From Abditibacteriota bacterium (GTDB taxonomy: Bacteria; Armatimonadota; UBA5829), in assembly GCA_017445025.1 (NCBI GenBank), contig JAFSVJ010000051.1, forward strand, positions 1 to 64,000: 64,000 nucleotides of DNA, in the 5' to 3' direction. Each line of letters begins with the position of its first letter. Position 1 is the stretch's first letter. Position numbers and translations under genes: made by a program. This document shows, piece by piece, positions 1,690-37,363 of the stretch. The notes beneath the pieces were generated by a model. The model was not told the origin of the DNA and ran no database searches. It saw only the letters and a program-made list of their open reading frames with translations.

Positions 1690-1850
1690 CCCCCTAAACT
1701 TGCAGAGTTTGTGGGTATCTCCCCTTTTGATATCAGGAACGGTAAATGTGTCCCCCTATTTTTCGAAGAAAAATGGGGGGTGTCAAGCCGAAGGCTTGAC
1801 GGGGGGGATCGTGATTTTTTGTAAAAAAATCACATTTTGCGAAGCAAAAT
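1690..1850. repeat. Tandem triloop hairpins between convergent genes
   Basis: Four inverted repeats stand almost end to end, each closed by a three-base loop: 1752-1780 (13-bp stem with one T-G pair, GAA loop), 1782-1800 (8 bp, GAA), 1811-1833 (10 bp, GTA) and 1834-1850 (7 bp, GAA). An imperfect CCCCTAAACT palindrome lies before them at about 1690-1716. They sit between the 3' ends of two convergent genes. None has the U-tract of a normal terminator. Confidence 0.8.
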
Positions 1851-3279: not shown

Positions 3280-3960
3280 AAAGCCAATTTTGGTATATAA
3301 TTTGTGTTTTTTTAATAATTGGTTTTTCTGCCCCCCTAAGCCAAAAGGCTTGGGGGGTGGATTTTTGCGAAGCAAAAAGACGGGGGGATGGAAATCTCAA
3401 AAATTTAGATTTGCTATGGTTGATTGACTTCACCCTCTTTCTCATCCCAAAAAGTGTCGTAAACTCCACTTTTAGGGAACCCTGAGAATTGAACTGAAAT
3501 TTGCACGTAGTTGAAAATTTCCTTTCAAGGATCCACTCCCAAAAAGTTTCGTAAACTCAACTTTTCGGGAACCCTTGGGTCACCCACCCACCCAGACCAC
3601 AAGGCGATAGCCATTGTGGTGGGTGGTATTTTTGATTTGCATGGAACTGCAAATCAAAAAGATGGGTTTTCGTAGCTACTAATAATCTGTTGACTGTTGC
3701 AAATTTCCTTTCAAGGACCCATTCCTAAAAAGTTTTGCATACAGGTTAGTCCCCCCTACTCAAACCCCTAAAAATTTCGCTTTGCTCAATTTTTTGGGGA
3801 CCCCTGAGTTGCGTGCCATTCTCCAAAAGGTTTCGCAAGCTCAACCTTTTGGAGCCTCTTGGCTACCCACCCACCCGGGATTTAGGGGGGTGATCAAATT
3901 ATAGACAAAACTATTACCTTGCTCTATTTTTTTGGAGCCTTTGGGCTTCCCACCTACTAG
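3280..3960. repeat. Large mosaic of short palindromic repeats
   Basis: This gap of roughly 850 bases between two minus-strand genes has no credible gene. It contains a C6/G6 hairpin at 3331-3357, a perfect TTTTTGC-GAA-GCAAAAA hairpin at 3362-3378 followed by GACGGGGGGATGG, at least four copies of the TCCCAAAAAGTT...AACTTTTNGGGA inverted repeat (about 3444-3486, 3536-3580, 3762-3808, 3818-3862), a CCACAAGGC...GCCATTGTGG palindrome (about 3599-3622), and a 13-bp stem around TGGAAC at 3629-3660. The same modules recur in other gaps of the window. Short open frames here are produced by the repeats and were not called. Confidence 0.8.
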
Positions 3961-6983: not shown

Positions 6984-8561
6984 ATGATTAGAAAAATAAT
7001 ATTTATTTTTGTGATTTTTCTTTTTATAAACATTGCTTTTGCTTCGAGAGATGATTATTTATTGGGAAATCCCAAAAGAGCAGAGTGGATGGTGGGAAAA
7101 TTCGGTTTGATGAATCATTATCTCTTCGTTCCCGAAGGAGAAACAGAAGAAGAAAAAACGGTAAATTTAAATAAAACCGTAGACAATTTTGATATAGATT
7201 ATTATATGGACCAAGTGGAGAGCATAGGGGCAAGTTGGCTCTTTTTTACCGTTGGTCAAAATACTAAATATTATTGTTCTCCAAATTCTGTAATAGAAAA
7301 ATGTTATCCCGGACATACATCAAAGAGGGATTTAATGCTTGAACTTGCCAAAGAATGTCACAAAAGAGGTCTTAGATTTGTATTTTATATTCCTGCAGAC
7401 AGTAGGTGGATGGATGACGGAAGCGGTTTTTATAATACATGGACAGCTGTGTGCAGAGAATATTCTTTAAGGCTTGGAAAATTGTGTGACGGTTGGTGGG
7501 TTGATGGTTGCGATCCAAATTAAATGCAAGGTTCATTCGGTAAAATGCTCTGTGAGGCTTTAAGAAGCGGAAATCATGACACTTGTCTTGGAATATCATG
7601 TCAAACTTTTGCTGCCGGCACTTATGGACAGGAGAGATATTCTTGTCCTTATACGGATTATATGCCGGGGGAAGTTCATCTTGTAGAGGATGGATATATA
7701 AGAACAGACGGAATGTTTGACCCTAATGTATTATATAAAAGTGATGACGGATATGTTAGAACTAAAAACCGTTATCCCAAATATTTTGTTCCGAAGGAGC
7801 AATTCATATTAGGTCAGCAATTACATGCTCTTGTTCCCACTGACAGTTGTTTTCAACCTTTTATAAAATTCTCATGGGTAAATTTTGAGAATAATAAGTA
7901 TGTGGAATTGGCTCACTCTTTTACTGACGTCCATGGTGGTATTACTTCTAACTGTGCCATCGATAAATCCAATGGTCATATTCCGGAAGAAGCCTTTAAC
8001 AGAGTGAAAAAGATAGGGGACAGTTATAAAGGAGAAAATGCTAAAAAGAAATATCCTTTGGATAAGAGTGTTTTAAAAAGAGCTGAAAGAAAAATACCTA
8101 AAAACCCTAACCCTAAGAATATAGCTTATTGTAAACCCTCATATTTAATGAATCCTAATTTGGATATGGAGATTAATTCAAGCGGATTTAATTATGATGC
8201 CTTTTTGGGTAATGACGGGGATTTTGATACCTGGTCTTTTGGTGGTGACGGTTTTTATGCTTATGCATATAAATTGGATTTGGAAAAAGTGACCACAGTA
8301 AAGAAAATATCTCTCTTTTTCGGAAAACCGAATAATAAAGATGTAGGTTTTACCGATGAGTTTTTGGTTAAAATTTCTAATAACGGAAAAGATTGGAAAG
8401 AGGTGGAACACTGTCTAAATCCGGAAAGAAAAACAGAAATTGAATTTAACTATGACAAAGGAATTAAATTTAGATATATAGCAATTATTGCTGTAAAGCC
8501 AAACGGTCCCAATCAACCGGGAGGTCAAATGTATATAAGAGAAATAGAAATTTATAAATAA
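6984..8561 (+). pseudogene. Secreted GH29-like/discoidin enzyme with one in-frame stop
   Basis: Read through TAA 7521-7523, this frame codes for 525 residues and is exactly as long (1578 bases) as its intact paralogue at 17637-19214, with no indel. Codon 180 is Glu (GAG) in the paralogue, in the order WWVDG-C-D-P-K-E-M-Q, and TAA here. A signal peptide (MIRKIIFIFVIFLFINIAFA), a GH29-like TIM barrel with WWVDG, and a C-terminal F5/8C domain are all preserved. The start at 6984 was chosen because the upstream ATG at 6966 only adds residues before the signal peptide. An ATG follows the stop directly (7524), but no Shine-Dalgarno precedes it. It may be a recent pseudogene, a read-through gene or an assembly error. 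Confidence 0.8.
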
Positions 8562-8572
8562 ATATTATAAAT

Positions 8573-10225: not shown

Positions 10226-10560
10226 CCCCTAAAACTCGTCAGAGTTTTGGGGGTTGCAGTTGCGAAAAATTTCCAAGGGTCTAGTCAAAAATCTTTAATG
10301 TTAAAGATTTTTGCCGTCGGGCACCGAAAAATCGTAGATTTTCCGGCTCTTGCTAAAAACGACCCAAGGGTTCCCGAAAAGTCGTTAAGACTTTTTGGGA
10401 TTTGGGCAAACAGTTGTCGTTTTTACAAAAAAGCGGTGCTTATTTCTCACCCCGAAAAGTTTCGCTTTTAGCTCAACTTTTTGTGGACCCCGAGATTGCC
10501 GCAATTCACCCCGGAAAGTTGAGCATAATCGAAACTTTTTGGGATTTGGAGTGACGGTGA
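10226..10560. repeat. Mosaic palindromic repeats, including an 84-base block
   Basis: The gap holds a CCCCTAAAACTC-GTCA-GAGTTTTGGGG hairpin (about 10226-10251), an 84-base block at 10280-10363 that recurs at 36152-36235 with four mismatches by eye, and three TCCC-AAAAAGT type inverted repeats (about 10362-10405, 10450-10498, 10508-10548). The 84-base block contains AAAATC-GTA-GATTTT, a GNA-loop hairpin. Open frames across this segment, including an in-frame extension of the next gene to 10395, are repeat artefacts. Confidence 0.8.
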
Positions 10561-17636: not shown

Positions 17637-19214
17637 ATGTTAAATAGAATCTTATTTGTTTTCTTGTTAATTATTTGGTCTGTTTTTGCTTTTTCTGCCG
17701 ATGACAGTTATCTCCTCGGTAATCCCAAGAGAGCTGAATGGATGGTAGGTAAATTTGGTTTAATGAACCATTATTTGTTTGTTCCTCCGGGAGAGACGGA
17801 AGAAGAGAAAACAGAAAATTTAAATAAAATCGTTGACAATTTTGATATAGATTATTATATGGATCAAGTAGAGCAGATAGGTGCAAGTTGGCTTTTTTTC
17901 ACCGTAGGTCAAAACACAAAATATTATTGCTCTCCCAATTCTGTAATTGAGAAATGTTATCCCGGACATACATCCAAGAGAGATTTAATGCTTGAACTTG
18001 CCACAGAATGCCATAAAAGAGGCTTAAGATTTGTTTTCTATATTCCTGCCGACAGCAGATGGATGGATGACGGAAGCGGTTATTATAATACTTGGACTGC
18101 CGTATGTCGAGAATATTCTCAAAGACTTGGAAAATTATGCGACGGTTGGTGGGTTGACGGTTGCGACCCTAAAGAGATGCAAGGTGAGTTTGGAAAGATG
18201 TTGGCTGAGGCTATGAGAAGCGGTAATCACGACACATGCCTTGGCATTTCCTGTCAAACTTTTGCGGCCGGCAGTTATAACAAAGAGTTGTATGCTTGTC
18301 CCTATACGGATTATATGCCCGGTGAAGTTCATCTTGTAGAGGATGGTTACATCAGAACAGACGGAATGTTTGACTCTTCTCTTTTATATCAAAATGAAGA
18401 AGGCTATGTGAGGGTTAAAAATAATTATCCGAAATTTTTTGAACCCAAAGAACAATTTATATTGGGACAACAACTACACGCTCTTGTGCCTACGGACAGT
18501 TGTTTTCAACCTTTTATTAAGTTAGAATGGGTAAATTTTGATAACAATAAATATGTGGAATTGGCTCATTCTTTTACTGATGCCAAAGGTGGCATAACAT
18601 TTAATTGTGCTATTGACAAGTCTAACGGTCATATCCCGGAGGAAGCCTTTAGAAGAGTTAAGAAAATAGGGGACAGTTATAAAGGCGATAATGCCAATAA
18701 AAAGTATCCTTTGGATAAAAATGTTCTGAAAAGAAGCAAACGAAAAATATCAAAGAATCCCAACCCTAAAAACATTGCATATTGCAAACCCTCTGATTTG
18801 ATGAATCCGAATTTGGATATTGAAATATCTTCAAGTGGTTTTATATATGATGCTTATTTAGGAAATGACGGTGATTATGAGACTTGGTCTGTAGGCGGTG
18901 ACGGTTTTTATGCTTACGCATATAAACTTGATTTGGAAGAAATTACCAAAGTTAAAAAAGTGTCTTTGTATTTTGGTAATCCGAATAATAAAGATAAAGG
19001 TTTTGCTGACGAATTTTTGATTAAGATATCAGATAACGGAAAAGATTGGAAAGAATTGGAACACTATGTAAATCCGGACAGAAAAACAGAGATTGATTTT
19101 AATTACAACAAGGGAGTGCAATTTAGATATATAGCAATTATTGCCGTAAAGCCAAACGGTCCCAACCAACCCGGTGGTCAAATGTATGTGAGGGAAATAG
19201 AAATTTATAAATAA
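17637..19214 (+). CDS. Secreted GH29-like hydrolase with C-terminal discoidin domain
   Basis: This 525-residue protein is the intact copy of the interrupted 6984 gene. It has a signal peptide (MLNRILFVFLLIIWSVFAFS), a barrel with KFGLMNHYLFVP, SWLFFTVGQNTKYYCSPNS and CDGWWVDGCD (Asp174 as likely nucleophile), and from about residue 380 an F5/8C domain ending GGQMYVREIEIYK. The C-terminal domain probably binds glycans. The close similarity to the 6984 copy points to recent duplication. TGAGGT precedes the start. It is the last gene of the carbohydrate block. Confidence 0.82.
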   Translation: MLNRILFVFLLIIWSVFAFSADDSYLLGNPKRAEWMVGKFGLMNHYLFVPPGETEEEKTENLNKIVDNFDIDYYMDQVEQIGASWLFFTVGQNTKYYCSPNSVIEKCYPGHTSKRDLMLELATECHKRGLRFVFYIPADSRWMDDGSGYYNTWTAVCREYSQRLGKLCDGWWVDGCDPKEMQGEFGKMLAEAMRSGNHDTCLGISCQTFAAGSYNKELYACPYTDYMPGEVHLVEDGYIRTDGMFDSSLLYQNEEGYVRVKNNYPKFFEPKEQFILGQQLHALVPTDSCFQPFIKLEWVNFDNNKYVELAHSFTDAKGGITFNCAIDKSNGHIPEEAFRRVKKIGDSYKGDNANKKYPLDKNVLKRSKRKISKNPNPKNIAYCKPSDLMNPNLDIEISSSGFIYDAYLGNDGDYETWSVGGDGFYAYAYKLDLEEITKVKKVSLYFGNPNNKDKGFADEFLIKISDNGKDWKELEHYVNPDRKTEIDFNYNKGVQFRYIAIIAVKPNGPNQPGGQMYVREIEIYK

Positions 19215-19306
19215 AATAATTATATTTTCTTTGTTTTCTATATTCAAATATGTGGGATAATGTAATTTTATATTTTTAATACAATTTGTTTTTTTTGATT
19301 ATTAAT

Positions 19307-32052: not shown

Positions 32053-32409
32053 GGGGATGTTTGGAGTCGACGTGCATGATTTAGTTGTATGATGCGTGTC
32101 GTGGGGCCGTTGGCCACGTAAAAAGCGGCAAAAAAATAACTGGCGAATCTTACGCCTTAGCTGCTTAATTTAAAGCAGAGTCTCCCGATAGCTTTCGCCT
32201 GAAAAGCTTTCGGCAGGCTTAAACCCAAATCAGGCTTTACTTTTAGGTTTTAAACGCTCGGATTTAAAAGGACATTTTAAGAAAACGTTAGGTTAAGGAT
32301 TTTCGTGTTCACAGGAGAGCCTTGGCTAAAGTGAAACTGCGAACTACACATGTAGATTTATGCAGCGGACATGTTCGGAAGGGGGAATCGATGCCCCCCA
32401 TCTCCACCA
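32053..32409 (+). ncRNA. ssrA: Transfer-messenger RNA (tmRNA)
   Basis: The 5' end GGGGATG (32053-32059) pairs with CATCTCC before the encoded ACCA 3' end (32407-32409 is CCA), forming the acceptor stem with one G-T pair. GGAGTCGACG follows the 5' end as expected, and the T-arm GTTCGGAAGGGGGAATCGATGC lies near the 3' end. The tag frame runs from GGC at 32127 to TAA at 32166-32168 and encodes GKKITGESYALAA, ending in the usual ALAA degradation signal. The RNA rescues stalled ribosomes together with SmpB. It is a one-piece tmRNA of 357 bases. Confidence 0.95.
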
Positions 32410-36039: not shown

Positions 36040-36480
36040 AAAAAATCAAATTCGTGGTGCGAAGCACCAGGTGTTGTGATTTGTAATTTGTGATTTGAAA
36101 GCAGAAAGCAGACGACCCCCCACGGGAAAATCAAAGATTTTCCTCGTAGCTTCTAGTCAAAAATCTTTAGTGATAAAGATTTTTGCCGTCGGGCACCTGA
36201 AAATCGTAGATTTTCCGGCTCTTGCTAAAAACGACAAGTTGTTGTCGTTTTTACAAAAAAGCGATGCTTATTTCTCACCCCTAAAACCCATTCCCAAAAA
36301 GTTTTTGCAAATGCTTCAATTTTTTGGAGCCCTTGGGTTGTTTCGGTATTCGCAAGGCTTTTTGGGGACCCCGAGATTACCGCAATTCAACCCCTAATGC
36401 AGTAGGGGGGACTGACTGTATACCGAAGCCAACCTTAAAATTTAGAGCCCTATAACCATTGTCGAACGCAGTTCGACGTT
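36040..36480. repeat. Mosaic palindromic repeats between convergent genes
   Basis: No gene is visible here. Units are: TGGTGC-GAA-GCACCA (36055-36069); an 84-base block at 36152-36235 shared with 10280-10363; the GCTTATTTCTCACCCCTAAA module with a TCCCAAAAAGTT...TTTTTTGGAGCCC repeat (about 36260-36340); a GACCCCGAGATTACCGCAATTC module leading into GCAGTAGGGGGGACT (about 36367-36413); and GTCGAAC-GCA-GTTCGAC (36461-36477). Several AATTTGTGATTTG-type AT words also occur. Confidence 0.75.
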
Positions 36481-37261: not shown

Positions 37262-37363
37262 TTATCAATTCACAATTCACAATTCACAATGCACAATTGT
37301 CGTGGTGCGAAGCACCACAATTTTATGCTTTATGCTTTTTAAATTTGCGATTAGCAAATTTAA
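37262..37363. repeat. AATTCACA tandem words and two hairpins
   Basis: The word AATTCACA recurs three times at about 37267-37290, ending AATGCACAATTGT. Then come GTGGTGC-GAA-GCACCAC (37302-37318) and TTAAATTTGC-GATTA-GCAAATTTAA (37339-37363), between the start of larB and the end of tilS. Confidence 0.65.

Follow-up and report, generated by a model that had tools for sequence, protein, structure and literature searches.

A dispersed bacterial repeat with mirror-ordered G-runs and a candidate intrastrand triplex turned by a CGTC-type REP hairpin

Intrastrand triplex repeats and CGTC-tagged REPs are each already known, and both resemble the element described here. The closest triplex repeats are the PIT elements (Hoyne/Maher) and TMECO (Holder et al. 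2015, PMC4666352). Like our element, they consist of a C-rich arm, loop 1, a G-rich arm, loop 2 and a second G-rich arm, follow the class II purine-motif code, have a high, patchy copy number, are mostly intergenic and show no strand bias. Some relatives of the PIT/TMECO type even have the same C-arm mismatch, CCTCGCCCC..GGGGAGAGG. In contrast to both, the present element has a hairpin of 13-30 nt (TGG-hp2-GAC) as its second loop. It spans more phyla than the proteobacterial TMECO, and some copies lie inside genes. Published searches for intrastrand triplexes used second loops of 1-6 nt (ITxF) or 0-10 nt (Hoyne), limits that excluded the hairpin-looped form.

CGTC-tagged REPs (Di Nocera et al. 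2013, PMC3733652) include Neisseria dRS3 and Rickettsia RPE-4/6. The complement of hp2, the second hairpin of our element, reads CGTC-stem-loop-stem-(G)CCA, with CGTC at the end of the stem-loop and a CCA-type unpaired tail, as in these REPs. Variable stems, intragenic units and the lack of a dedicated or associated transposase gene are also shared. However, CGTC REPs have stems of 8-9 bp and loops of 4-5 nt, whereas the stems here are 4-9 bp and the loops mostly 3 nt (TNC). In addition, hp2 has a C-arm hairpin and mirrored purine runs around it, and the CGTC REP paper makes no mention of purine runs or triplexes (PMC3733652).

GTAG REPs and BIMEs, which have RAYT transposases, are short dispersed palindromes as well, but the GTAG tag is absent from the element and a Y1 transposase gene from the genome. 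In mitochondrial double-hairpin elements, too, two neighbouring hairpins have variable stems and conserved flanks. These elements are not known to have a purine-run mirror code.

We describe an interspersed element that probably forms a purine-motif triplex with a CGTC-type REP hairpin as loop; it may be mainly selfish and spread by stalling and copying. A triplex and a CGTC REP in one conserved element were not described in the literature searched, outside which subscription journals mostly lay. The element joins two groups of repeats that have been catalogued separately, both without an explained spread.

Four hairpins and two element copies in the window

The window is the 64,000-nt stretch of contig JAFSVJ010000051.1 that was analyzed. 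At 1752-1850 the first-pass annotation had reported four tandem perfect hairpins with stems of 13, 8, 10 and 7 bp and loops GAA, GAA, GTA and GAA. Positions, stem lengths and loops were all reproduced (Table 1), but the stem of hairpin 1 is not perfect. When folded as single-stranded DNA, the 109 nt with the four hairpins gave -30.9 kcal/mol, compared with a shuffled mean of -11.3 (z = -7.9).

Table 1. Features of the two element copies in the window
Feature	Position	Strand	Description
Hairpin 1	1752-1780	+	13 bp including one T-G wobble, loop GAA
Element copy 1 (type B), C-arm CCCCC	1752..1756	+	partner of G-run1
Copy 1 hp1 apex ATTTTTC-GAA-GAAAAAT	1757..1774	+	top of hairpin 1
Copy 1 G-run1 GGGGGG	1775..1780	+	Watson-Crick partner of C-arm
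Copy 1 hp2 GTCAAGCC-GAA-GGCTTGAC (hairpin 2, 8 bp)	1782..1800	+	second loop of the proposed triplex
Copy 1 G-run2	1801..1807	+	proposed third strand
hp3 GTGATTTTTT-GTA-AAAAAATCAC, 10 bp	1811..1833	+	accessory hairpin of type B copies
hp4 ATTTTGC-GAA-GCAAAAT, 7 bp	1834..1850	+	accessory hairpin; dispersed alone too
Element copy 2 (type A)	3329..3395	+	TGCCCCCC-TAAGCC-AAAA-GGCTT-GGGGGG-TGGA-TTTTTGC-GAA-GCAAAAA-GAC-GGGGGG-ATGGAAAT

Hairpins 1 and 2 together make up one copy of an interspersed element, ordered C-arm – hp1 – G-run1 – TGG – hp2 (GNA loop) – GAC – G-run2. The conserved unit is more than a GNA hairpin: it runs from the C-arm to G-run2, and its G-runs are mirror-related, which fits a DNA triplex. 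Type A copies have the layout TGTCCCCCTAA-[hp1]-TTGGGGGGTGG-[hp2]-GACGGGGGGATGGAWWT. Type B copies share this core but differ in their flanks and are followed by hairpins 3 and 4; the full hp1-hp2-hp3-hp4 order was found in 13 of them.

The source genome holds 109 copies with strict flanks and at least 133 with looser flanks, whereas backwards-sequence controls gave 0. In every copy found by pattern GACG adjoins hp2, in part because the search was built that way. TGG or TGGC precedes hp2 in nearly all copies, but copy 1 in the window carries TGT there. Pairing of the C-arm with G-run1 amounts to five C:G pairs and one T-G in copy 1 and to six pairs in copy 2. Read on the opposite strand, hp2 of copy 1 is a hairpin of the CGTC-tagged REP type.

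The other GNA hairpins named in the first-pass annotation also belong to repeats. The one at 3362-3378 is hp2 of copy 2, and those at 10328 and 36461 are members of further repeat families. The hairpins at 36055-36069 and 37302-37318 belong to a single-hairpin family, GTGGTGC-GNA-GCACCAC, with 44 copies in 1.71 Mb and loops that are almost only GAA and GTA. At 36120-36260 and 10280-10395 lies a separate composite repeat of ~142 bp, CCAAGGGTCTAGTCAAAAATC..GTAGATTTTCCGGCTCTTGC.., with several hairpins. It occurs about 33-41 times in the part of the genome sampled, and its GTA loop sometimes holds the triplex element.

An Rfam search of the window matched tmRNA alone. This gene (32053-32409) has a predicted tag, GESYALAA, that is unusually short. 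Elsewhere in the window, 7065-8569 and 17718-19224 are 82% identical over 1.5 kb and overlap ORFs; they are likely duplicated genes.

Stem covariation and mirror order of the G-runs

Among 12 distinct hp2 sequences of equal length from the source genome, 97.6% of stem cells were paired, compared with 79.3% after shuffling, and double-sided changes numbered 14 against 3.4. Sliding the partners gave nothing comparable to the true pairing. The first-pass observation that stems vary while the loop class is kept was thus confirmed. Across species, 167 of 208 hp2 loops were triloops, 129 of these 167 were GNA, and the stems were often 5-7 bp.

In G-runs that contain A, run2 is run1 read backwards, as in GGGGAGG..GGAGGGG, AGGGAGG..GGAGGGA and GGGGGAGG..GGAGGGGG. 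We searched viral contigs with four patterns of equal composition. The mirror order GGGGAGG..GGAGGGG occurred in at least 120 stretches, the direct order in 5, and the other orders in 4 and 1; none of the 10 non-mirror stretches was a hairpin-confirmed element. GGAGAGG..GGAGAGG was also observed, which is self-mirrored and so cannot tell mirror from direct order.

The opposed bases were compared in 208 hairpin-confirmed elements, for which an hp1 of at least 5 bp was a selection criterion. Opposite a run1 G stands G, and opposite a run1 A stands A or T, at nearly every position within the hp1 stem up to position 7; exceptions are more frequent at position 8. At many loci part of the runs was set by the search pattern, and the tests were confined to the free positions. 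Of these, 93.5% were triad-compatible, compared with 68.5% in shuffled pairings (z = 8.7), and a second figure gave 83.7% against 56.7% (z = 7.8), both against shuffles that ignore relatedness among the elements. At least six consecutive triads are kept in 31 distinct run-pair classes, including AGAAGGGGG/GGGGGTTGT, GAAAAGGGGG/GGGGGATTTG and GGGGGAGAGG/GGAGTGGGGG. Watson-Crick pairing of run2 with the C-arm side was rejected: of 138 distinct elements, 124 had triad runs longer than any such pairing. The source genome has almost uniform G-runs (5/6/6). Mirror covariation is therefore seen in copies from other species, and the triplex proposed for the window copies, with 5-6 triads, depends heavily on these relatives.

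Run1 is the Watson-Crick partner of a complementary C-rich arm, and run2 mirrors it in antiparallel order with G*G.C, A*A.T and T*A.T triads. This argues for a purine-motif intrastrand triplex, and hp2, a hairpin of the CGTC-tagged REP type, would be its second loop. The DNA-level structure of the element is well supported by these sequence comparisons. When the G-rich strand becomes single-stranded, the C-arm would pair with G-run1. hp2 would then close as a GNA mini-hairpin and turn the chain back, and G-run2 may lie antiparallel on G-run1 as the third strand of a class II (purine-motif) intrastrand triplex. With a hairpin of 13-30 nt in place of a short second loop, the element is a variant and not a plain member of the class II intrastrand triplex repeats.

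Second-loop lengths were counted in a scan that required the C-arm, run1 and a triad-compatible run2 but not TGGC/GAC. Loops of 1-6 nt were found 36 times, loops of 7-12 nt 15 times and loops of 13-30 nt 333 times; these numbers are no census, because the scanned loci had been chosen as carriers of the element. Of the 333 long loops, 284 held a hairpin of 4 bp or more, and the reversed-sequence control of the scan gave 2. The valley between the length classes is informative and suggests two ways of turning the chain, with a few bases or with a closed hairpin.

The triplex is open to direct test with short oligonucleotides. The covariation of the proposed triplex can be followed base by base through many phyla and is evidence from evolution that triplex DNA is under selection in bacteria.

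Distribution, gene context and spread

Named genomes with the same architecture belong to Burkholderiales, Oscillospiraceae, Propionibacteriaceae, Bacteroidales, Ignavibacteriales, Endomicrobium and Kiritimatiellaeota, and Sphingomonas plasmids carry it as well (92%). Not all cross-phylum matches are elements; a match was called hairpin-confirmed with a stem of at least 4 bp. Of 291 genomes of the phylum, only a handful had hairpin-bearing matches among the matches listed. Of 18 other genomes of the order, two had matches, neither with a hairpin, and none was recognizable as the element. One 25-bp motif is common to a genome of the phylum and a Kiritimatiellaeota record. Matches in many phyla but few relatives indicate a patchy distribution, with high copy number in individual species. 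E. coli genomes had no match to the element, and a search of paper texts for its sequence returned unrelated papers only.

Copies are mostly intergenic, but at least three occur in frame within long ORFs, which encode a GH3 beta-glucosidase, an M16 peptidase and a CBM9-domain protein. The GH3 protein has an insert of ~20 residues relative to five homologues at the element copy. In the M16 peptidase the copy falls within a variable interdomain linker. These in-gene copies resemble the palindromic elements of Rickettsia, which include two CGTC REPs (PMC3733652).

An ordinary REP could have been moved in trans by a Y1/IS200-type (RAYT) transposase, with the G-runs as mere recognition flanks. The CGTC-like tag, the short variable stem and the CCA-like tail do look like CGTC REPs, and of 34 carrier genomes 14 encode a Y1 transposase. 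However, the other 20 carriers have none, published CGTC REPs lack a dedicated transposase (PMC3733652), and the mirror order and the A-to-T exchange in run2 are left unexplained. The source genome, with its at least 133 copies, also yielded no Y1_Tnp, while controls were detected; this assembly is a 122-contig draft, 91.6% complete, so a collapsed or unbinned mobility gene is possible. On balance we consider mobilization by RAYT unlikely. Genes for IS110, reverse transcriptase and TnpB were likewise not found in the source genome, and these candidate mobilizers were rejected. With so many copies and no detectable transposase candidate of the four kinds, it is a good genome for asking how repeats multiply.

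We looked for traces of the spreading process. Target-site duplication gave no signal above shuffled pairs, and there was no leading/lagging-strand bias (32 vs 27). Tandem copies exist, and in two repeat families a few copies replace loops of other hairpin repeats, but neither is the rule. Loop insertion showed no excess over all type A copies, of which 0 of 45 had an 8-bp flanking stem.

We infer that fork stalling and copying spread the element. The fold would stall DNA polymerase, a weaker proposal than the structure itself, and copying or template switching during restart may spread copies and nest them in other repeats. The element would be mainly selfish, tolerated between genes and sometimes in frame within them. 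This mechanism is favored because of a closely related repeat with a TTA second loop, whose very stable triplex was proven in vitro (Tm 70-82 C), which causes a polymerase stop, and which marks unstable loci in E. coli (PMC4666352). More tentatively, such elements might be phylum-spanning, enzyme-less DNA parasites, in which a triplex with a self-folding REP-hairpin turn spreads by fork stalling and restart copying; we regard this as possible rather than probable. If true, it would explain both CGTC REPs without a transposase and triplex repeats at unstable loci.

DNA folding and the genome-wide hairpin excess

Every copy carries several G-tracts on one strand, and the tracts of run1 and run2 could stack as a G-quadruplex. 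A quadruplex needs neither a complementary C-arm, nor mirror order, nor T/A opposite a run1 A, and NMR ruled it out for the related E. coli motif (PMC4666352). This reading is improbable.

Still less probable are transcribed RNA hairpins that act as terminators or mRNA stabilizers. Such a role would suit the mostly intergenic copies and the convergent sites that some of them occupy, and GNA loops are compact in RNA as well. However, copies also occur within ORFs, orientation relative to genes shows no preference (19 vs 24 co-directional), and no T-tract follows the stem in the direction of the upstream gene, which upholds the earlier view that these are not ordinary terminators. Moreover, G*G.C triads are a DNA-type motif. 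Tetraloops, in small numbers, were GNYA in 10 cases and GNRA in 9, and this similar frequency fits DNA better than RNA. The first-pass annotation had proposed selection or copying acting on DNA or RNA structure; the results favor the DNA part, while the dispersed-repeat copies had been overlooked.

The hairpin excess was measured over 1.71 of 2.85 Mb, with stems of at least 7 bp in non-coding DNA, gene calls approximated by longest ORFs and three first-order Markov simulations. Non-coding triloop hairpins numbered 438, compared with 65-79 in the simulations (about 74 expected). The loop was GNA, or TNC (a GNA hairpin read from the opposite strand), in 187 of the 438 (43%), compared with 4-6 simulated (7% expected). 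A C-G pair closes 151 of the 187. In coding DNA, 43 of 277 triloops were GNA/TNC. The 187 hairpins are not all independent; they have 64 distinct arms, and most lie in interspersed repeat families. From these counts the triloop excess and the GNA preference are real, and they are carried largely by dispersed repeats.

Many different hairpin families stand side by side, as expected if quasi-palindrome correction made perfect short-loop hairpins anywhere, but such a chance or mutational by-product is scarcely credible given this enrichment with its GNA preference, dispersed near-identical flanks in all those copies and TGG..GAC conserved across phyla.

Repeats with at least 10 matches elsewhere make up about 3% of the 1.73 Mb sampled and are mostly short and hairpin-rich. 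The sample held no near-identical repeats of insertion-sequence size, and the median over all repeat matches was 83 bp. Many hairpin repeats of the source genome stand next to short tandem runs, for example AATGCACAATGCACA and TTCTGCTTTCTGCTTT.
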